Shown: piece by piece, positions 1,919 to 64,000 of the stretch
Numbering within the stretch: the first letter of the stretch is position 1
Layout: the number at the start of each line of letters is the position of its first letter
Assembly: GCA_021498125.1 (NCBI GenBank)
Contig: JAIZWL010000007.1
Span: 1 to 64,000, forward strand
Source of the DNA: Candidatus Thorarchaeota archaeon
GTDB taxonomy: Archaea > Asgardarchaeota > Thorarchaeia > Thorarchaeales > Thorarchaeaceae
Length of the DNA stretch: 64,000 nt
Reading direction: 5' to 3'
Translations under genes and position numbers: made by a program
The notes under the pieces: model-generated
The model's input: the letters and a program-made list of their open reading frames with translations, nothing else
Told to the model about the DNA's origin: nothing
Databases searched by the model: none

Positions 1919-2236
1919 ATGACGGAAACCAATGAAGGCCAAGTCGCTGAATCACTAGCACAGTTCAGAGGTCATGTGATCAAGACAGTCTTGTTTGTGA
2001 TTGTGATGTTAGGTCCTCTGATTATAGCCTATTTCCTTCAAGATGTAATATTGCAATGGATGGGTACAGGTTATGACGAAAGATTTGTTGGACTGGTATG
2101 CTGGTCTCTCATGATTATTTGGTGGTTTGCAATGCTCAAAGTCGTTCTTCCGCTATTCAGTAGGAGAATCGACAGTCGAGTTGCGGGCAGCTACACCAAA
2201 CTTGGACATATTTGGACATTGTTTGTAGGAGTTTAA
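1919..2236 (+). CDS. Small two-helix membrane protein, possibly truncated
   Basis: A 105-residue protein with two membrane segments (about residues 19-42 and 58-82) and a basic loop after the second. I do not recognise a family. It lies 31 bases downstream of the caspase-like membrane protein in the same direction and may be co-transcribed with it. Its stop codon falls inside the TATA-like box of the small RNA element that starts at 2222, so the original C-terminus may have been replaced when that element arrived. The reading frame is otherwise clean. Confidence 0.5.
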   Translation: MTETNEGQVAESLAQFRGHVIKTVLFVIVMLGPLIIAYFLQDVILQWMGTGYDERFVGLVCWSLMIIWWFAMLKVVLPLFSRRIDSRVAGSYTKLGHIWTLFVGV

Positions 2237-2357
2237 ATACTCCCGGCCACAAGTCACGTATGACCTTCACTCTGATGGTGAGGTTGTTATTGCCCACTGC
2301 CGTTGGTGGGCGGACTATGGACCCACTGTCCAAGAAAGTCCAACTTATAATCAACGG
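2222..2357 (+). ncRNA. Omega/re-RNA-like small RNA element, copy B
   Basis: A 136-nt element that matches a second copy at 6252-6391 from the TATA-like box to the last base. The shared parts are TTTGTAGGA, the box, TATGACCTTCA, a GTTGGTGGGCGG block and the terminal AAC(T/A/G)TA(T/C)AATCAACGG-like end. From 2291 on it also matches the last codons and 3' end of the TnpB-like gene at 57427-57495 read on the minus strand. CCGTTG (2300-2305) can pair with CAACGG (2352-2357), as in the pseudoknot next to the guide in TnpB RNAs. If it works like those RNAs, the guide would start at 2358. No open frame continues through it, so it is not simply a gene fragment with coding potential. It could instead be a dead MITE-like end. 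Confidence 0.6.
2226..2240 (+). promoter_or_regulatory. BRE/TATA-like promoter of small RNA element B
   Basis: A TTTAAATA box at 2232-2239 is preceded by a purine-rich TAGGAG, as in archaeal BRE plus TATA promoters. The conserved block shared with the copy at 6252 resumes 27 bases after the box starts, which is where an archaeal transcript would begin. The same box-to-block spacing is present in the second copy, so the promoter appears to be part of the element. Promoter activity is inferred. Confidence 0.5.
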
Positions 2358-2491
2358 TTGCAGACAGCTGCCAAAGAGATGGCCAAGATTGAACATGGGC
2401 CTTGTGGGAGTCAACATATTGACGACCCTAGCACTCAATTGAGGCCATGATGAGAAGAGCTAGGTTTCATGACCAAAATCGATTGCAATGA

Positions 2492-6510: not shown

Positions 6511-6580
6511 CCGGTGCCGCTGGTGGGCGGACTCGGTGGATGTGACATCTGGTCAAGATAGTCCAACTTACAATCAACGG
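6511..6580 (+). ncRNA. Omega/re-RNA-like element, copy D (3' part only)
   Basis: This copy has only the 3' scaffold: GCCGCTGGTGGGCGGACT, then GTCAAGATAGTCCAACTT and ACAATCAACGG. Its end is closest to that of copy B and of the TnpB-like gene. CCGCTG (6517-6522) against CAACGG (6575-6580) leaves one mismatch. No TATA-like box sits at the position seen in copies B and C, so it may be silent or carried on a longer transcript. It ends 13 bases before the MoxR start codon, so a guide would overlap that gene's leader. It may simply supply leader sequence to the operon. Confidence 0.5.
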
Positions 6581-52763: not shown

Positions 52764-53068
52764 GCCAATAGGTAACTGACACATGCCGTAAACTAGATGA
52801 ACCTAGAGCTAATAGAGATCATTAGACACAGATCTGAATGCCTTCCCTATACTACCAACAATGGTGGACTCCTTTTGGAGTTCCCATTTTTCATTTTAAG
52901 AGGTCTTTGTCCCTATTATTTTTTATTCACAATCGACTACTGAATCGTTCTGGTAGGGGCTTAAAAGATTACGTTCGCAAAATACAGATGGTACTCCCCC
53001 AATAGAGTTCCTAGTTTTCTCATTCGGTACACTGATAAGCTCAAGTATGGAAGTGGTGACTGATAGTG

Positions 53069-54346
53069 ATGGAGCAATCTACGATCCCTGACTTTGATTC
53101 ACAGGGCGGAGCAATGTCTGATGATTGGACATTTGAGAGAGCGAGTACAAACTATATGACTCATGGGCTTCATCCCTATCCAGCAAGAATGATTCCTCAA
53201 ATTGCAAGAAAATTGATACTCCGGTATTCGAAATCTGGTGAAACGGTCTGGGATCCGTTTTGTGGGTCAGGAACTGTTTTAGTCGAGTCAATGCTCTTAG
53301 AGCGAAGATCTATAGGGACTGATCTGAATCCTTTTGCTATCTTTCTCTCAAAAGTCAAGACCACACCAATAGAACCCGATCTGCTGAGCATTACAAGCAG
53401 AAAGATCATCGAACAGGTCCTGTCACTAAAGCCGGGCGACATAGAAGCTCCGGTGCCACCAATGCATAATATCGACTATTGGTTTAAAAAATATGTTCAA
53501 AACGATCTCGCGCAAATATTGGCCGTCATTAACGGGATCGAAGATTCTGACCTGCGAGATTTCTTCCGCTTATGCTTTGCTTCCACTGTTCGTGATGTTT
53601 CTAATATGAAACGTGGCGAATTCAAGATCGTGCGGATGCGTAAGGAAAAGTTGGATCGTTTTCAGCCGGAGGTCGCGGCAATTTTTGCCAAGCATGTTCA
53701 ACGGTGCGTCCCGTTGATGAAGTCATTTCATGCAGCACTTGCTGATAAAGAGGTCTCCACTCCTGAGATATTTGAAGTTGACAATCGTGTCGCACCTATC
53801 GCTCCTCGCTCAGTAGATCTCGTCGTGACTTCGCCCCCGTATGGTGACAGTGCAACAACGGTCGCCTATGGTCAGTACTCGAAGTATCTCGCCCTTTTGC
53901 TAGGTCTCGAACACGAAGACGTTGTTTCTGTTGACAAACGAAGTCTGGGTGGCTCAAACAAACATGATCATGCAAATGGCGATCTTGAGAGTGAGAGCCT
54001 CTCAGCGATCTATCATCAGGTGCAAGCAAAGAGTGAGAAGCGAGCAAAGCAATTATTGGGCTTTTTCAATGACCTCAACGGCTCGTTACTCTCAATCTAT
54101 GATAAGATGCGTAGTGATTCACAAGTATGCATAGTCTTGGGAAACCGGTTAATGAGCAGGGTCAGAATTCCGACACATGTGATCGTCTCTGAATTAGGCG
54201 AGGCGATGGGTTTTGAGTTGGAGCAGATGATCCCTCGTAAAATTCCAACTAAACGAATGCCATGGCAAAATGCTCCAGAGAACGTTGAAGGTGAAAAAGC
54301 GGACACAATGCATAGCGAGCATATAGTCGTTCTACACAAGCCTTAG
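53069..54346 (+). CDS. DNA methyltransferase, probably N4-cytosine (MvaI/BcnI-type system)
   Basis: A 425-residue SAM-dependent DNA methyltransferase that would protect host sites. Motif I/X is DPFCGSGTVLVESMLLERRS followed by IGTDLNPFA (about 70-95); the catalytic motif IV is TSPPYGDS (about 252-259), the N4-cytosine/N6-adenine amino-methylase signature. The order FGG then SPPY matches alpha/gamma-like enzymes. GTG and ATG starts lie side by side; the ATG was chosen. The gene converges on the restriction nuclease gene, the two stops overlapping by four bases. An N4-cytosine product would fit the MvaI/BcnI partner. The target site is not readable. Confidence 0.85.
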   Translation: MEQSTIPDFDSQGGAMSDDWTFERASTNYMTHGLHPYPARMIPQIARKLILRYSKSGETVWDPFCGSGTVLVESMLLERRSIGTDLNPFAIFLSKVKTTPIEPDLLSITSRKIIEQVLSLKPGDIEAPVPPMHNIDYWFKKYVQNDLAQILAVINGIEDSDLRDFFRLCFASTVRDVSNMKRGEFKIVRMRKEKLDRFQPEVAAIFAKHVQRCVPLMKSFHAALADKEVSTPEIFEVDNRVAPIAPRSVDLVVTSPPYGDSATTVAYGQYSKYLALLLGLEHEDVVSVDKRSLGGSNKHDHANGDLESESLSAIYHQVQAKSEKRAKQLLGFFNDLNGSLLSIYDKMRSDSQVCIVLGNRLMSRVRIPTHVIVSELGEAMGFELEQMIPRKIPTKRMPWQNAPENVEGEKADTMHSEHIVVLHKP

Positions 54347-55059
54347 ATGATCCTTATCTTTTCTCTGAACAATTTTGGCATCTTGGTCTCAAGCATTCGG
54401 TAACACGGGCCGTGATCTCTGACGGTGCCATCGCTTTTTACATGCATTCGCCAATCAAATGTAATATCGCCATTCTCTATGAGTTCAATACACTTCGTGA
54501 TGTCCGCGTTGGCAAGTAGATATGCTTCATCATATCGAAAGAATTCTTCTTTCCCCTCTCGTTTCCTCTCCGCAATTATCAAGACCAAGTTTGAGACTTT
54601 CCTCGACAGTTTGTCTTCTAGTGACTGAAAGTCTTGGGAGGCAACGATCTCATCGTTATGTGAGAACAGAATTCTCTCGTTGTCCTTATCAACTATCATC
54701 TTCCAATGACGGTTATTCTCGCTGATAGCATCTAGTGTAAGGTATAGTGCTTGTCTATTCCGTTTCTCATCCCAGTATCCATGGGCTTGCATGAACTCGG
54801 CCCGGCTCTTGTACTGATGCAACTTCGGGGCCTTTGACATAAGTGTGATTGGTGTCTTAGAATCGCGTCGTGTTGTCTTGATCTCCAGTAGTCCCCAATC
54901 GGGTAGGGCCACATTTGTCTCCGGAAGGCCAAGAAGCCCTTCCATTGTGTGACCAACTCCGGTATTGCCCTTCCTATACGATCGAATCCATCCAACATCC
55001 CGGATCTTTTCAATTCTTCGTACAAGTTCCTCCAGTGTCATTTCAGGAATCGAAGTCAT
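54343..55059 (-). CDS. Restriction endonuclease, MvaI/BcnI family
   Basis: A 238-residue type II restriction enzyme. The family start is RRIEKIRDVGWIRSYRKGNT, then GVGHTMEGLLGL with Glu40, then ALPDWGLLEIKTTRRD holding the PD-(D/E)xK site: Asp54, Glu59 and Lys61, the same spacing as in MvaI. Known relatives cut CCWGG or CCSGG as monomers. The gene faces the methyltransferase and ends against it. This tail-to-tail order, with the four-base overlap, leaves each gene its own promoter. The site is probably a short CC-GG-type sequence, by family. Confidence 0.88.
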   Translation of the reverse strand: MTSIPEMTLEELVRRIEKIRDVGWIRSYRKGNTGVGHTMEGLLGLPETNVALPDWGLLEIKTTRRDSKTPITLMSKAPKLHQYKSRAEFMQAHGYWDEKRNRQALYLTLDAISENNRHWKMIVDKDNERILFSHNDEIVASQDFQSLEDKLSRKVSNLVLIIAERKREGKEEFFRYDEAYLLANADITKCIELIENGDITFDWRMHVKSDGTVRDHGPCYRMLETKMPKLFREKIRII

Positions 55060-57426: not shown

Positions 57427-57495
57427 CCGTTGATTGTTAGTTGGACAATCTTGGACATGCCGTCCCGTCTGTCCGCCCAGCAACGGCACTGGGCA
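57427..57495 (-). ncRNA. Omega/re-RNA scaffold at the 3' end of the TnpB-like gene, copy A
   Basis: Read on the minus strand, this stretch covers the last 19 codons and the stop of the TnpB-like gene and eight further bases. It matches the three copies at 2291, 6327 and 6511: GTGCCGTTGCTGGGCGGAC, then GTCCAAGATTGTCCAACT and AACAATCAACGG. CCGTTG (plus 57481-57486) pairs with CAACGG (plus 57427-57432). In characterised TnpB systems the guide RNA overlaps the 3' end of tnpB and the guide lies just past this scaffold; here it would begin at 57426 and read TTGCCAACGG. Because the copies elsewhere are not coding, the conservation is on the RNA or DNA level, not the protein. Confidence 0.6.
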
Positions 57496-59614
57496 CATAG
57501 ATGATATTCCTTGCGGCGTTCACATCCGCATGGAGTTCCGCCTCACAGTGCGGACAGTAGAAGTACTCGCCGCCTCGCCGCTCCTCTCTCGCCCCCGGCC
57601 ACTCGATCCTGTAGCCTCGCTCTCCGCACGCACTACAGGTCTGCGAGGTCCACTTGGGGTTCACACTCCACACCCCTCCATACTTGTGGCCCAGCTGCTG
57701 CCTCATGTACACTATGGTCTCCCATATTCTGGCCCACAGGTTCGTACTCAGCGCCCAGGACAGGCCTCTCTTTCCAGCGGGCGGCGTGTAGTTCTTCAGG
57801 CTCTCGAAGACCAGCGTCCGCACCTCGTGTTCCTCACACCACCACACCGCTCGTGAGGCCACCTGTCGTGCGATCTCTCTGTCCAGTCTTCGTATCTTTC
57901 TCCAGACCGCCGCCAGATGCCTCATCTTCTTCAGGAGAGGCCCGGGATACTGCTGTCTATATTCGCTTGTCCCCATCTTTTTTGTCTCTGTCTTTGACTC
58001 CCAGTTCCTCTTTTTTCGTGCCACCTCTCCGCTCAGCCATCGGGTCTCCTGCCGGAGCGCCTCTCGTCTTTCCAGCAGGCCTGTCATCTCGATGATCTCA
58101 TCGACATACCTGTCTTTTCCCGTACTCACCGAGACCACCAGTGGCACACGAACCCCGCGGTCGGCTCCGGCACGTCTGTGATACTCTCTCTCGCCGATGG
58201 TCTTCGCAATGAGTTCGCGATGCGGTGGCAGGAAGGGTATCTGCAGGACGACCCGCTCCCCCCTCATGATTATACGTGGAGGAGCACTGCGTCGTGCGAG
58301 CCTCAGTCGTGCGACCCGTGTCTTCAGTCGCTCGATCTCTTCAGGGTCGCCCTTTCGACTCTTGAGGCGCGTGAGGCGATACACTGCGTGCTGGAGTTCT
58401 ATGGTGTTCACGAGCTGCATGTGCTGGTCTCTCATCTTTGCAGCTCGGAACCGTAACTGACGTGCGCGCCCCTTCTTTCCGTGCATGGCTGCATCCCGTG
58501 CCTTTCGCTCATCTCTCTGTGCGGCACGGACCAGCCAGTCGAGAAACCGGAGGGTCAGGGTCTGCACGCGATAGGGGGAGGACTTGTGTTCGCGTCCACG
58601 AATGGGGCGAGGAAGCTTCAGGTGGAAGAGGACCTCGTTCTCGCGGTCCCTGTCGAGGCTGAACCAGTAGCCCTGTCCGGGCATGTTTTCCGTCGAGGCT
58701 GAAAAATCACAGACTGCCGAGAGCATGAGCGGGGTCTCGAACGGGTAGCCGTTTTTTAGCCAACCGCGAATCGTATCTCTTGCGAGTGAGAAACTAGAAG
58801 GGTCCTCTCGTACGTACTTGGAGACACGACGACGTTGGCTTGTCCGCCAGCCAAGTGGTTCGCCTCTCGACCCGAGAAGTTCATGGTCGAGCCGCTTTCT
58901 CAGCTGTTGTGCTGCGGAGAGGGCATAGTAGTACGAATTCCCATTCTTTTTCTTGAGGGTGTCCTTCATCAGTTGGATGAGTTGACGGGGGATGTACTTG
59001 TTGCCTAAGAGGCGTCTGAGCAGGTCTTGATCATTGTTCAGGACTTCCAGCCCCGCTATTAATAACTGTCGCCTCATCCAGTCACTCTGGACAATTCTTG
59101 CTGCTTGTTCTAGTGCGTTCCGATAGAGCCGTTCATACGTCTTCTCGCGGATTGCCTCATTGTCCTTGTAAGCCAGAGCGCTATTGCGCTTCAGAACTAC
59201 GTAGCCATGGCCTGCTTTCTCAACCAACTCTTCTCCCAGTCGCTCCAGTAGTTCCTTGTCACTATAGACTCTGGAGAGCACGTCATTTACTATCTCTACA
59301 TACTTCTCAAAGTGTCCTGATAGCACATTCAGATCTATTCTCTCTACTTTTCGTCCGTGCTCTCGTGAGAGCATCTCTTGGATTTCCTCGTTCCACCTTC
59401 CTCTTCTAAATCGGGGGTCCGGCTGTCGCCCCTTTCCTTTTCGCAAGACTACTCTCTCAGAAGAGTTCAATGTGAACTCTTCAATCAGATAGGTTAGACC
59501 AGTATGGATAGACGACCACCTTATTAATCTGTCATTCATTGTCTTTTGCATTGCTTGCGTCCGCGAATGACACCGGACTGTACCTGTGGTCGTCATTTCT
59601 CTTCGCTCTTTCAT
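57437..59614 (-). CDS. Large TnpB/Cas12-like RuvC nuclease
   Basis: A 725-residue nuclease; ordinary TnpB has about 400. The C-terminal third holds all parts of a split RuvC site: Asp485 in RAGADRGVRVPLVVSV, Glu604 in TLVFESLKN, and Asp697 in HADVNAARNI. The zinc ribbon is complete: CSACG (Cys660, Cys663) and YCPHC (Cys687, Cys690). The first 480 residues are helical, basic and unrecognised, and make it Cas12-sized. No TnpA gene lies nearby and no CRISPR array is visible. The gene is divergent from the giant ORF at 59750 with a 135-base gap that must hold both promoters. RNA-guided DNA cutting is inferred from family and from the scaffold at its 3' end. Base composition is GC-richer than the neighbours. 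Confidence 0.85.
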   Translation of the reverse strand: MKERREMTTTGTVRCHSRTQAMQKTMNDRLIRWSSIHTGLTYLIEEFTLNSSERVVLRKGKGRQPDPRFRRGRWNEEIQEMLSREHGRKVERIDLNVLSGHFEKYVEIVNDVLSRVYSDKELLERLGEELVEKAGHGYVVLKRNSALAYKDNEAIREKTYERLYRNALEQAARIVQSDWMRRQLLIAGLEVLNNDQDLLRRLLGNKYIPRQLIQLMKDTLKKKNGNSYYYALSAAQQLRKRLDHELLGSRGEPLGWRTSQRRRVSKYVREDPSSFSLARDTIRGWLKNGYPFETPLMLSAVCDFSASTENMPGQGYWFSLDRDRENEVLFHLKLPRPIRGREHKSSPYRVQTLTLRFLDWLVRAAQRDERKARDAAMHGKKGRARQLRFRAAKMRDQHMQLVNTIELQHAVYRLTRLKSRKGDPEEIERLKTRVARLRLARRSAPPRIIMRGERVVLQIPFLPPHRELIAKTIGEREYHRRAGADRGVRVPLVVSVSTGKDRYVDEIIEMTGLLERREALRQETRWLSGEVARKKRNWESKTETKKMGTSEYRQQYPGPLLKKMRHLAAVWRKIRRLDREIARQVASRAVWWCEEHEVRTLVFESLKNYTPPAGKRGLSWALSTNLWARIWETIVYMRQQLGHKYGGVWSVNPKWTSQTCSACGERGYRIEWPGAREERRGGEYFYCPHCEAELHADVNAARNIIYVPSAVAGRTDGTACPRLSN

Positions 59615-59749
59615 TCTTACTCATTCTACTTATACTCCACTTTCCCTTATTAATCTATCAAGCAAAAAGGGCTATTATGCCAATATTTGGCTTATAATGC
59701 CATGATAGACCGATATTCAGTATTCCAAACAATGTGGAATTACTTATAT

Positions 59750-62700
59750 ATGACTACAAGCATAGCCATGGTGAACAACTTGCCACGACGAAGTGCCAAC
59801 CCGCGACCGAACGAGGTCCTCATCCAGTCCATCTATACGGGACTCTCGGCCGTGGCACGGATGGGCTCGACACGCGCAAGATATGGAAACCCCTGCCTCG
59901 CAGAGGCCATGGAGTCCCTCTGGCGACGGGCACGAACACGCTATCGCAGGTCGGGCACGGGGCGGACACGCGACTTCTCGCCGATCAGAAATGCAGAACC
60001 GAACCTGCGACGCCTCTTTCTCAAGATGGTCTGGAATAGTACTCGCAGATACGGAAACGTAGAACGTAAGAGAGTCTACTCATGGAGAGAGGGGACAGTT
60101 GGCCCCCTCAACGCACTATTGAACTATGCAGGCGCACGACTGCGAGAGCTGGCAGTGACACAGTATCCCTTTCCCGAACCGAAGAAGTATCAGATCAGGG
60201 AATATCGTGACGGGCGGCAAGTGGTCCTCAACGAGCATATGGCAGGGTTGAGAGGAGAAGACGATGGTGCGGTCAAGACCTATTGGCGGGCGGGCTATCC
60301 GACCTCCCGGACCTATCCCCGTGTCTTCCTCGCGCATCCCACCCTTCCCTCCCTGGACTTTGTGGACATGATCCGGGCTCACGTCGTGGAACTGGTGCGC
60401 CAGTGCTTCATTCACAATGTCCCACGGACCATTGCACAGGCATACATCGACAGGCTCATCCACGAACTCGCTCCCTTTCTGGAATATGTCTATACTGGTG
60501 GAGAGAGGGGACGCAAGGACTTCTTTCCCGAGGCAGACCGGGAACTGCGGAACATCGTCCTTGAGATAAGAGCAGAGTACGGCGTCAGAGCGGGGAGAAG
60601 ACAACGCATGAGTAGATTGGTACGGGAGTTTCAGACTGCCTCCGCCAATATCGAGACCCTGCGACAGAACGCCCTCCACGCCCTGAAGGAATTGGAGGAC
60701 ACGGAGGCTATCGCACAGGCACAGGAGATCCTCGACCAGATCGACCGGGCCAACATCGGAGAGGCGGATGTGGACCGCCTTATGGAACGGGTCACGACGC
60801 TTGCCCAACATCAGGGCACCGACTGGCATCGGATGCTCCTCAGCGGCCTGCCACATCCCGCCTCACTGAAGTCCGTGGTCCTTCATGGCGATGGACTCCT
60901 TGATAGGCCTTCAGACACGCTCTTCGTGGCAGAGCTGTCCGTCCTCGGCGAAGGCGCGGGCGCTGCCGACATCGTCCTCTTTCTGAGAAGAATTATTGAT
61001 GAGAGGGTGGTGTGGACGCCCATCGCAGTGCTGGAGATCAAGACCAAGTCGGCCTTTGACTTCACTATTATTGGCATCAGGCCGCGCACAAAGAAGTATG
61101 ATACCCGTGTTCCTCATCCCATCATCGAGAGGCGGCCACTCACCGACTCGGAGTGGGAACGGGTCCTTCATTCGACACCCACGTTGAGCGCAGAACACCA
61201 ACTTGACCTGTACTCACGAGCCATCATACAGGAATACAGCGACCTAATCACAAACGACCCTCGACCACCCGGAACACTCTGGCAGGGTGTCATTCTGATT
61301 GATACGACTCAACGACAGCGGGATGAGGCGTACAGTCAGTTCATGGAACTCCTCAGAGGGCTGGGGGAGGAACTCATCGCTGGCGGTCCCGACCCCTCAC
61401 AGAGGACACTGTTTGCAGTATCGGGTTCAGACTCTCGGATCGCAGTAGTGGTGCTCCCCTCTACACGACAGGGGAACGCGCCACCACCCGTGAGAGAGAA
61501 CAGAACGGGACCGCCACCAACCCTACCGGAACAGGATCCCTTTGCTCAACGAAGGGACCACAAGGCGTTCTTCACCCTGTACGTGTCCGTGGCGTCGCCC
61601 ACCTCCTATGGCCCGGCTGCGACCACTGTAGCCACGCGATGGCACCTGATCAATCATCTTGACGAATTGTGTTCTGGTCATAGGCCACCCCCCACGATCG
61701 TGTGGCTCGACTTTCGAGGTGTCTATCCCACAGAGGGCCACAGAACACTCCTCTATCGTCGTCTCGGTCTTCATTCTGTGAACGTTAGGGGCGGCATCCC
61801 ACGAGACCGTCTGAGGCGACTACGAGGACTGGTGGATCACATCCACTTCGTTGATATCCATGAGGCAATGAATGTCTTCCTGCGCGAACCCACGGGGAAC
61901 AACCTTACAGTTCTGAAGGGCCACATGGCCGACATACTACAATCATATGGGAACGGGAGCACGGTCATCATCCTTGACGGCTGGAGTGAACTCTCACGCC
62001 TCCGCCCCCTCTCGAACGGTACGCTACGTGTCCTTGAGGAACGACTGGTCCGGTGGCTCGACGGAGAGAACAGAGAGGTCCTCTGGCTTGACACAGGCGT
62101 GCCGGACTCGCGTATGGACCCCGTTTTTCAGAAACACAGGGTTCGCCCCCTTCCACATGACTCCCCCCGGGCAAGAGTACTGGATGAGATCATCTGGAAC
62201 CTCCCCCTGCCGCCACGTGTCTTTGGCTGGCGTGCTCCCGTGGCCGAGGACGCCCGGGTCATAGTCCAGGACCTGCCCTCTGCGAGTAGACCGTGGAGCA
62301 CTGTTATCCATGTGCCGCAGCTGACGGGGTGGAGCGCACGGTTCAGAGCCGCCACCGTGGACAGACGCCCGGTCCTCGATATGACCAAGGCCGAAGATCA
62401 GACTGGCCAGCGCGAACGACCCATGTACGGCAGAGGAGTCACCCTCTCAAGCATCCAGTCCCCGTTCATCAACACCGAAGAACTCGTAGAAGCAGCCATG
62501 ACCCTGCTCCCAAGTCTGAGCCGTTCCCGTTCCCATGGGCCGGGCCTCCCAGCAGTCCTTGAGGCACATGGCGAGCGTGTGGAGTTAGACCAGCGACCAC
62601 TACCACCACCTTCTCGCTCAATTAGACCTCCATCAGAGAAGGCTGCCACGACCGACAGGTACGACAGACTGGAGGCGCGCCTCACCCTGCGGCCGCAGAT

Positions 62701-64000
62701 TGCCGCGTCGCTCCTTGTGGAGCGTAGGAACTACTCCCCACCGGGAGGAATCACTCGTTCGTGGCGCTGGAAACATGAGCGTGCTCATGACGCCAATGAT
62801 GACGTGGCAGCGGAGTCGAGGCACAAACGGGTGACCCATCGACCTCCACCCATTGCCTTGTGGAATACGACACTGGACACCGAGGAACACCGCAGACGCG
62901 AGTTGCACAGACTGAGCAATACAGCACGTTTCCTGACGAGGCGAACTGAGATACTCTTCGATGAAGACCTTGTAAACCTCCTCGAACGAGTCAGGACTAT
63001 ATGTGCAGAGGGACTGAGGACCGGAGCGTCACTAGATGCATTGCAGCAGGTGGCGCATGTGCTGCTCTCCCGAAAGGAGACCCGTGAGGTCTGGCTGCTG
63101 CTGCGAGAGGAGCGCCTCCAGTCACGAGAGATCCTGAGTCGGAACAATCGCCAACTCGTGGAACAGCGACTCCGTACCGTCCCCAACCTGTTCCTCCTCT
63201 ACGGAAATGCACTATTCCTGCTCATCACCGCCATCGTGAGACGGCTTGTTGATTCACCCCGTCCGGAGGCGATACAGACACTCTGGAGAGCCGTGGGGCA
63301 GTGGGTCCTCATCCACATCGGTCTGGAAATCGATCGTGAGGCACTGGGCGATACGGTGTCGCGGTACAGCACGCATGCCCTCTACTCGAATCTGCGGTCC
63401 CGGCTCTCGAACCTGCAACGCCTCCGACGGCCTGTACCTGAGACCCGCCACCACCCCGCCGATGATGTGACCGAGCCCACAATGGATAGCCCCATGATGA
63501 TCTCACGTAGAATTCTGGAGGTGCGTCATGGTCGCCTGCTCATCCTCGAGGACGAAACGGATCCTACTATCGAACCACTGGCCTGGCTACTATTTCCGCA
63601 GACTCCCTCCTCCGCGCCCCCCAGTCCCTCAGAGCCCTGGTTCATGGGCCTGTTCCGATTGGGGTCACGCTTTCTGATGCGCGGTGGCTGGGCCCGTGGC
63701 ATCACCGACTACTCGCATCTGTGGACCGCCGCAGAACGCGCCCGTGGAGTCTCCACCAGCGTGAAGGTCTTTCCAGCAGCAGTGGTCCATACATCCAATG
63801 GCAGGCTATTGCTATGGCTCAAGAGTCTGGTCATGGAGGACGACTCGCTGGAGTGGCACTGCTCCGGACTGCTGGAGTACCCGCGACAACGGCAGGTGGC
63901 ACAGAAGAGTATTGGAACGCTGCACCCCCTTCCCCTCCACCTTCGCCTCCTCAGATGGCTGAGCCTCTCCCGACCCACAGACATAGATGTGGCCGCGTAC
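59750..64000 (+). CDS. Giant protein with PD-(D/E)xK nuclease motif and RecA-like region (runs off window)
   Basis: An uninterrupted frame of 1,417 codons from ATG 59750 to the window edge, with no stop reached. Residues 1-300 are basic and helical. At about 390-440 lies a PD-(D/E)xK nuclease core: GEGAGAADIVLF with Asp407, then TPIAVLEIKTKSAFDF with Glu429 and Lys431. Residues 605-790 look like a RecA/RadA fold: LYVSVASPTSYGPAATT where a Walker A would be but without its GKT, then TIVWLDFRG, HIHFVDIHEA, and the Walker B-like STVIILDGWSEL (Asp743). The rest is not recognised; a helical stretch lies at 1040-1200. Codons are GC-rich and Arg/Leu/Pro-heavy. It diverges from the TnpB-like nuclease, so they may be co-regulated. 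A start at 59771 is possible. ATPase activity is doubtful; nuclease activity is plausible. Confidence 0.7.
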   Translation, partial: MTTSIAMVNNLPRRSANPRPNEVLIQSIYTGLSAVARMGSTRARYGNPCLAEAMESLWRRARTRYRRSGTGRTRDFSPIRNAEPNLRRLFLKMVWNSTRRYGNVERKRVYSWREGTVGPLNALLNYAGARLRELAVTQYPFPEPKKYQIREYRDGRQVVLNEHMAGLRGEDDGAVKTYWRAGYPTSRTYPRVFLAHPTLPSLDFVDMIRAHVVELVRQCFIHNVPRTIAQAYIDRLIHELAPFLEYVYTGGERGRKDFFPEADRELRNIVLEIRAEYGVRAGRRQRMSRLVREFQTASANIETLRQNALHALKELEDTEAIAQAQEILDQIDRANIGEADVDRLMERVTTLAQHQGTDWHRMLLSGLPHPASLKSVVLHGDGLLDRPSDTLFVAELSVLGEGAGAADIVLFLRRIIDERVVWTPIAVLEIKTKSAFDFTIIGIRPRTKKYDTRVPHPIIERRPLTDSEWERVLHSTPTLSAEHQLDLYSRAIIQEYSDLITNDPRPPGTLWQGVILIDTTQRQRDEAYSQFMELLRGLGEELIAGGPDPSQRTLFAVSGSDSRIAVVVLPSTRQGNAPPPVRENRTGPPPTLPEQDPFAQRRDHKAFFTLYVSVASPTSYGPAATTVATRWHLINHLDELCSGHRPPPTIVWLDFRGVYPTEGHRTLLYRRLGLHSVNVRGGIPRDRLRRLRGLVDHIHFVDIHEAMNVFLREPTGNNLTVLKGHMADILQSYGNGSTVIILDGWSELSRLRPLSNGTLRVLEERLVRWLDGENREVLWLDTGVPDSRMDPVFQKHRVRPLPHDSPRARVLDEIIWNLPLPPRVFGWRAPVAEDARVIVQDLPSASRPWSTVIHVPQLTGWSARFRAATVDRRPVLDMTKAEDQTGQRERPMYGRGVTLSSIQSPFINTEELVEAAMTLLPSLSRSRSHGPGLPAVLEAHGERVELDQRPLPPPSRSIRPPSEKAATTDRYDRLEARLTLRPQIAASLLVERRNYSPPGGITRSWRWKHERAHDANDDVAAESRHKRVTHRPPPIALWNTTLDTEEHRRRELHRLSNTARFLTRRTEILFDEDLVNLLERVRTICAEGLRTGASLDALQQVAHVLLSRKETREVWLLLREERLQSREILSRNNRQLVEQRLRTVPNLFLLYGNALFLLITAIVRRLVDSPRPEAIQTLWRAVGQWVLIHIGLEIDREALGDTVSRYSTHALYSNLRSRLSNLQRLRRPVPETRHHPADDVTEPTMDSPMMISRRILEVRHGRLLILEDETDPTIEPLAWLLFPQTPSSAPPSPSEPWFMGLFRLGSRFLMRGGWARGITDYSHLWTAAERARGVSTSVKVFPAAVVHTSNGRLLLWLKSLVMEDDSLEWHCSGLLEYPRQRQVAQKSIGTLHPLPLHLRLLRWLSLSRPTDIDVAAY

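Follow-up and report, generated by a model that had tools for sequence, protein, structure and literature searches.

A giant protein-coding gene paired with TnpB in IS607-type and related elements of Thorarchaeota, and its possible role in break processing

The giant gene and the element that carries it

The DNA analyzed here, referred to as the window, comprises the first 64,000 nucleotides of contig JAIZWL010000007.1 (C7, 124,301 bp in total) from the assembly GCA_021498125.1 of a Candidatus Thorarchaeota archaeon. At its end lies a very large gene, hereafter the giant, which is placed divergently beside tnpB within an IS607-type mobile element. The preliminary description, made from the sequence alone, had reported at this place an open frame of at least 1,417 codons. 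The frame is real: it occupies 59750..64000 on the + strand, with its first 1,417 codons inside the window, and extension of the contig showed that it is complete at 1,842 codons (1,842 aa) from the ATG at 59750, with the stop at contig position C7:65278. An alternative upstream start, the TTG at 59687, would give a protein of 1,863 aa; as the starts of the homologues lie close to the ATG, position 59750 is preferred, which leaves a divergent gap of 135 bp to tnpB, and residue numbers are counted from it. In sequences that come mostly from metagenome assemblies, the ratio of nonsynonymous to synonymous substitution rates (dN/dS) among giant homologues was 0.15-0.26, similar to or slightly above that of TnpB of the same elements, and the giant family is under purifying selection.

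On one side of the giant, tnpB (57437-59614, - strand) encodes a 725-aa RNA-guided nuclease of the Cas12f/TnpB superfamily (PF07282, 1.2e-14; matches to guided_TnpB and Cas12f), with an intact RuvC D/E/D, a zinc finger, CxxC pairs and a TNB domain. On the other side, the next gene past the stop is tnpA (contig 65317-66009, - strand, just outside the window), an IS607-type serine transposase in which a resolvase domain (PF00239, 3e-22) is preceded by an N-terminal helix-turn-helix (HTH_17/MerR). Read along tnpB, the order is tnpA, giant (antisense), tnpB and right end; that is, the element has the ordinary IS607 layout with the giant gene placed between tnpA and tnpB.

The left element boundary, with its GG core on the - strand, was placed at 57427..57428 by shared terminal motifs and by exact empty sites in the relatives L039 and L043, and the right one at about contig 66090, outside the window and beside tnpA, by matching ends. 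The 3' end of tnpB (57427..57541, - strand) carries an omega-RNA-like tail that ends with CAATCAACGG at the element end. In this tnpB class the tail consists of a hairpin of the CCCAGTGCCGTTGCTGGG type, repeats TGTCCAANNNTGTCCAA and a terminal CAAT(C/G)AACGG, and is followed by unrelated sequence. In an alignment of 23 element ends the hairpin covaries: three of its six pairs are altered on both sides, 97% of the cells are paired, and none of 500 shuffles reached its covariation score. On sequence, this layout is that of a structured 3' omega RNA continuing into the flank, and the host flank past the tail (TTGCCAACGG...) would serve as the predicted guide; Rfam gave no significant match at the locus. 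The tnpA-side end has the same repeats and finishes in ...ACCC on the + strand, which is GGGT in the tnpB orientation. Furthermore, short, apparently gene-less copies of both ends, resembling miniature inverted-repeat transposable elements, are present in the window (2199-2358 and about 6554-6580), and similar ones were found elsewhere in the genome (C1:1480625-1480797 and C5:79-112).

Some other features of the surroundings should be mentioned. The same genome holds two tnpB remnants (C1:2-904 and C3:212622-213161), 79% and 91% identical to the window TnpB. A stretch of about 240 bp adjoining the element (L002:9295-9571, equal to contig C7:66295-66571) is 67-78% identical at the DNA level to sequences of many Thorarchaeota genomes; it overlaps a small open reading frame, and its relatives lie at apparently non-syntenic places. 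In addition, a restriction-modification pair, formed by a DNA methyltransferase (N6_N4_Mtase) and a restriction endonuclease of the MvaI/BcnI family, is located at 53066-55059, about 2.4 kb from the element.

Mobility, conserved pairing with TnpB and distribution

The flanks of the window copy are non-syntenic in relatives, and therefore empty sites were taken from other copies. L039 and L043 are allelic regions of two genomes; L043 is devoid of the 8.6-kb tnpA-giant-tnpB element present in L039, and L039 is devoid of the 8.3-kb giant-tnpB element present in L043, each as an exact GG/CC empty site. A copy of the L043 element (8,179 bp) that is 93.7% identical was found in L042 with unrelated flanks. 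Thus tnpA, the giant and tnpB move together, as a single element of about 8.6 kb that enters a GG target. Insertion at GG without target duplication is a known signature of IS607 (PMC6188088), and the exact empty sites display it in two giant-bearing relatives; for the window copy, the matching ends suggest the same. The preliminary description had spoken of a defence or mobile-element system: the mobile half is borne out by the IS607 ends, the GG target and the empty sites, and the defence half found no positive support.

The association with TnpB was counted among 63 unique giants, leaving aside a clade of about 1,420 aa and requiring 900 bp or more of sequence upstream of the gene. A divergent TnpB was found beside 49 of the 50 qualifying giants (50 of 51 after extending the contig of L126), and the only unpaired giant in this set, L072, is 5'-truncated. 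TNB-domain matches are few, from 1 to 45 per examined genome and 2 in the genome of the window, so that adjacency by chance is negligible. The preliminary description had made its reading depend on this gene pair recurring in other archaea, and it recurs at about 50 independent loci. Two classes of TnpB accompany the giants, one of about 715 aa (IS607-type) and another of about 560 aa, the latter called IS605-like by its right end and TnpB family only. No TnpA was found beside elements of the ~560-aa class, and many giant elements have no tnpA nearby. On the tree of the giant, obtained by a quick tree search, the TnpB class switches at least eight times while the divergent layout persists, which indicates that the partner of the giant is TnpB in general. 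It should be noted that in the ~560-aa class (loci L022-L101 with tnpB2) the stretch where RuvC-II normally has its glutamate reads VAIGRLKxIR and lacks that residue, so that the active site is arranged atypically.

The divergent spacing of 135 bases from a TnpB-like gene, described previously, holds with the homologue starts near the ATG, and the neighbor is a real TnpB. This region (59615..59749) is a predicted divergent promoter common to both genes: across homologous loci the gaps are mostly 113-263 bp, and a TATA-like motif, defined after looking at these intergenic regions, occurs in 41 of the 49 against about 4 in shuffles, in both TnpB classes.

The ~1,420-aa clade presents another layout, tnpA, giant, Rad51-like gene, small gene and tnpB, with tnpB seen at three loci. 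The Rad51/RadA-like ATPase has an intact Walker A and lies in the same operon, directly downstream of the giant and partly overlapping it (L053:11079-12077); it occupies the same place in L051, L052, L054, L095, L096 and L099. As a separate observation, a family of about 230 aa without Pfam match occurs beside tnpB, between tnpB and the giant, or near giant-less tnpB (L027:11282-11962, L031, L033, L034, L036, L053:12086-12742 and L175), and is a possible third component.

Regarding distribution, a profile built on residues 1-939 matched 33 of 228 genomes of the Asgard phylum, 30 of them in the family of the window and three in one other; the named records are Candidatus Thorarchaeota and one "Heimdallarchaeota" bin. 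The gene is multicopy, with up to 16 matches per genome, some being fragments; lengths range from 1,400 to 1,950 codons and the elements measure about 8-9 kb. No relatives were found in viral contigs, phages or plasmids, and there is no family for the giant in Pfam, NCBIfam or PADLOC (0 families in the last). Among the papers searched, none deals with Thorarchaeota and TnpB together, with TnpB, Asgard and IS607, or with Thorarchaeota, mobile genetic elements and insertion sequences. The giant constitutes a previously undescribed gene family of Asgard TnpB-carrying elements.

Domains of the giant protein

The most conserved part of the protein is a mostly helical N-terminal domain (59807..60616), delimited by invariant columns (RYGNxExKR, LDFxDxIRxH) and the structural model. 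The idea of a tyrosine recombinase, raised by eye for this domain, gave no hhalign signal against just four sequences and is unsupported rather than excluded; a match to phrog_296, "DNA transposition protein", appeared in one of 25 members and was rejected.

Next comes a predicted nuclease domain (60767..61306). The preliminary description had noticed a PD-(D/E)xK triad at Asp407, Glu429 and Lys431, and the triad is indeed there: D407 and K431 are invariant, and all 41 homologues have E or D at position 429. The full set D407, (E/D)429-x-K431 and Q484xxxY488 is kept in all 38-41 homologues examined, with strands and helices in the order expected for the RecB/PDDEXK_1 fold. In a profile comparison with Thorarchaeal PDDEXK_1 proteins the motifs were in register, with an E-value of 7e-4 (0.34 for the reversed control); these and the other hhalign values are single pairwise comparisons. 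Pfam gave no nuclease-family match in any of 25 members, and Cas4 proper was discarded as the identity, having no profile signal where PDDEXK_1 gives one. Judging from motif and fold order, the giant carries an intact RecB-like PD-(D/E)xK nuclease domain.

A RecA/Rad51-like domain follows (61547..62335). The order of RecA/RadA strands had been read by eye, and it is now sustained by a confident AlphaFold model of residues 1-939 (mean predicted local distance difference test, pLDDT, 83.3; predicted template modelling score, pTM, 0.84), whose best Foldseek matches in the PDB are almost all of the RecA superfamily: a RAD51-paralogue complex (E 1.1e-3, probability 1.00), Elp4/5/6, Dmc1, DnaB and KaiC. 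A fold unrelated to the nuclease and RecA families, which would have spoken against the earlier reading, was not what the prediction and the fold search returned. Also in a profile comparison with the Rad51-like proteins of the elements themselves, the WLDLxGxY and VDGW strands were in register (pairwise E 5.6e-4). The sequence SPTSYGPAATT (61595..61627), pointed out previously where the GKT of a P-loop would be expected, is a degenerate Walker A by motif alignment; only four of 38 homologues have the GK[ST] lysine, as GKT or GKS. Likewise, where Rad51 has its catalytic glutamate (DTEG), the giant reads DLxG. Of the features of the RecA/Rad51 superfamily, then, the fold is present and the lysine and the glutamate are lost, which makes it probable that the domain is a pseudo-ATPase with an active ATPase as its ancestor. 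As a whole, the earlier picture of a nuclease with an inactivated ATPase fold beside an RNA-guided nuclease is supported by the invariant motifs, the predicted structure, the fold search and the conserved pairing.

In the C-terminal half, profile matches to designed helical proteins were set aside as non-specific, and an RNase H-like fold (Foldseek E about 1e-2, low template modelling score, model pTM 0.41) is not claimed.

Possible role of the giant and comparison with known systems

As the likeliest of the roles considered, we tentatively propose, while granting that the opposite is somewhat easier to believe, that the giant is a dedicated accessory of TnpB transposons, which processes the breaks made by TnpB so that homologous recombination recopies the element. 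After excision, or on meeting an empty allele, the omega-RNA-guided TnpB would cut the empty site; the giant would bind and trim the broken ends through its nuclease domain, and its RecA-like pseudo-ATPase may pass them to the host RadA or, in one clade, to the Rad51-like partner of the element. Homologous recombination would then copy the element into the break, the giant being a retention or homing helper. Cutting of the empty site by TnpB, followed by recombination that copies the element back, has been described for other IS families (PMC11870625). The combination of a RecB-like nuclease, a RecA-fold mediator and TnpB, with a Rad51-like ATPase in one clade, fits a helper of break processing for recombination. 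The reciprocal empty sites, the 93.7% identical copy elsewhere and the up to 16 matches per genome are in agreement with such a helper acting within a selfish unit.

Several observations weigh against this proposal. The Foldseek matches narrowly miss 0.001, the best being 1.1e-3 with probability 1.00. The N-terminal domain, the most conserved one, and the C-terminal half have no function assigned. The ~1,420-aa clade differs in layout, and its two testable loci (L051 and L054) have no adjacent tnpB. IS607 elements of the same TnpB class exist without the giant, which is therefore dispensable for the basic life of the element. Finally, an interaction of the giant with TnpB or RadA is a prediction from genes and models, and the physical partnership, the end processing and the recombination outcome are all put forward in that sense.

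A bolder form of the idea is that the element constitutes a self-contained RNA-guided homing machine, in which TnpB is the cutter, the giant a nuclease and pseudo-RecA mediator, and Rad51 is added in one clade, so that the element controls both break and repair; we regard this as possible but doubtful.

It is unlikely that the giant is instead a transposition factor that joins in excision or integration (end recognition, strand processing, target capture), replacing or aiding TnpA. Copies without tnpA have moved (L042/L043) and many giant elements have none nearby, and it is conceivable that the conserved N-terminal domain is a catalytic recombinase; nevertheless, a serine TnpA acting in trans accounts for IS607 insertion at GG, tiny gene-less elements with the same ends occur too, and neither the limited tyrosine recombinase comparison nor the isolated phrog_296 match helps this view. 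Slightly more improbable still is a cargo for defence or inter-element warfare, with the giant as a nuclease effector that has a pseudo-ATPase as its sensor and destroys invading DNA, and the transposon as a mere carrier. An intact nuclease together with a degenerate ATPase fold is common among defence proteins, the distribution of the giant is patchy and the restriction-modification pair lies near the window copy; however, the giant has no PADLOC match, its copy number is more in keeping with a selfish gene than with a part in host immunity, and the obligate pairing with TnpB across two classes would be left unexplained. Least credible of all is a regulator or toxin-like partner that keeps TnpB cutting in check or permits it, acting via the common promoter region or by direct binding, for although the divergent layout, the gaps of mostly 113-263 bp and the shared TATA-like motif would suit it, the size and invariant nuclease active site of the giant are excessive for that task and the ~1,420-aa clade gives up the divergent layout.

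Studies of TnpB systems treat them as minimal units of tnpA and tnpB. The existence of a conserved giant partner that has joined up with more than one TnpB class suggests that dedicated helpers of recombination arose in the evolution of some RNA-guided nucleases. This bears on the way in which breaks made by TnpB result in copying of the element, and it could be of use for recombination-based genome insertion; the mobile elements of Asgard archaea also gain a large protein family without annotation.

Compared with the IS607 family, the element shares a TnpA with N-terminal HTH and resolvase domain, a tnpB with an omega-RNA-like tail at the right end and, in the relatives tested, a GG/(G)GG target without duplication; it differs in the giant of 1,400-1,950 codons, antisense between tnpA and tnpB, and in a TnpB of 725 aa. 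The ~560-aa class is similar, together with its conserved right end, to solo-tnpB elements of the IS200/IS605 type, whereas the divergent giant, the lack of a TnpA found beside it and the absence of the RuvC-II glutamate from its usual place set it apart. With RAD51 paralogues, Elp4/5/6 and other members of the RecA superfamily the giant has the RecA fold in common, and Elp4/5/6 have likewise lost the catalytic residues; in the giant, however, this fold stands in one chain with a RecB-like nuclease and with large domains to which no family has been assigned, and there is no family membership at the sequence level. With PD-(D/E)xK nucleases of the RecB/Cas4/AddB type (PDDEXK_1) it shares the order D, (E/D)xK, QxxxY and the weak profile match (7e-4), but no helicase or iron-sulphur cysteines were identified in it and no Cas4 profile match was significant. 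Lastly, the aloposons of Heimdallarchaeia are also Asgard mobile elements with giant proteins (PMC8813620); they have tandem genes of 3,000-6,000 aa and integrate at tRNA genes, with no mention of TnpB or IS607 in that work, whereas the element described here carries one gene of 1.4-1.95 thousand aa and is inserted at GG sites.

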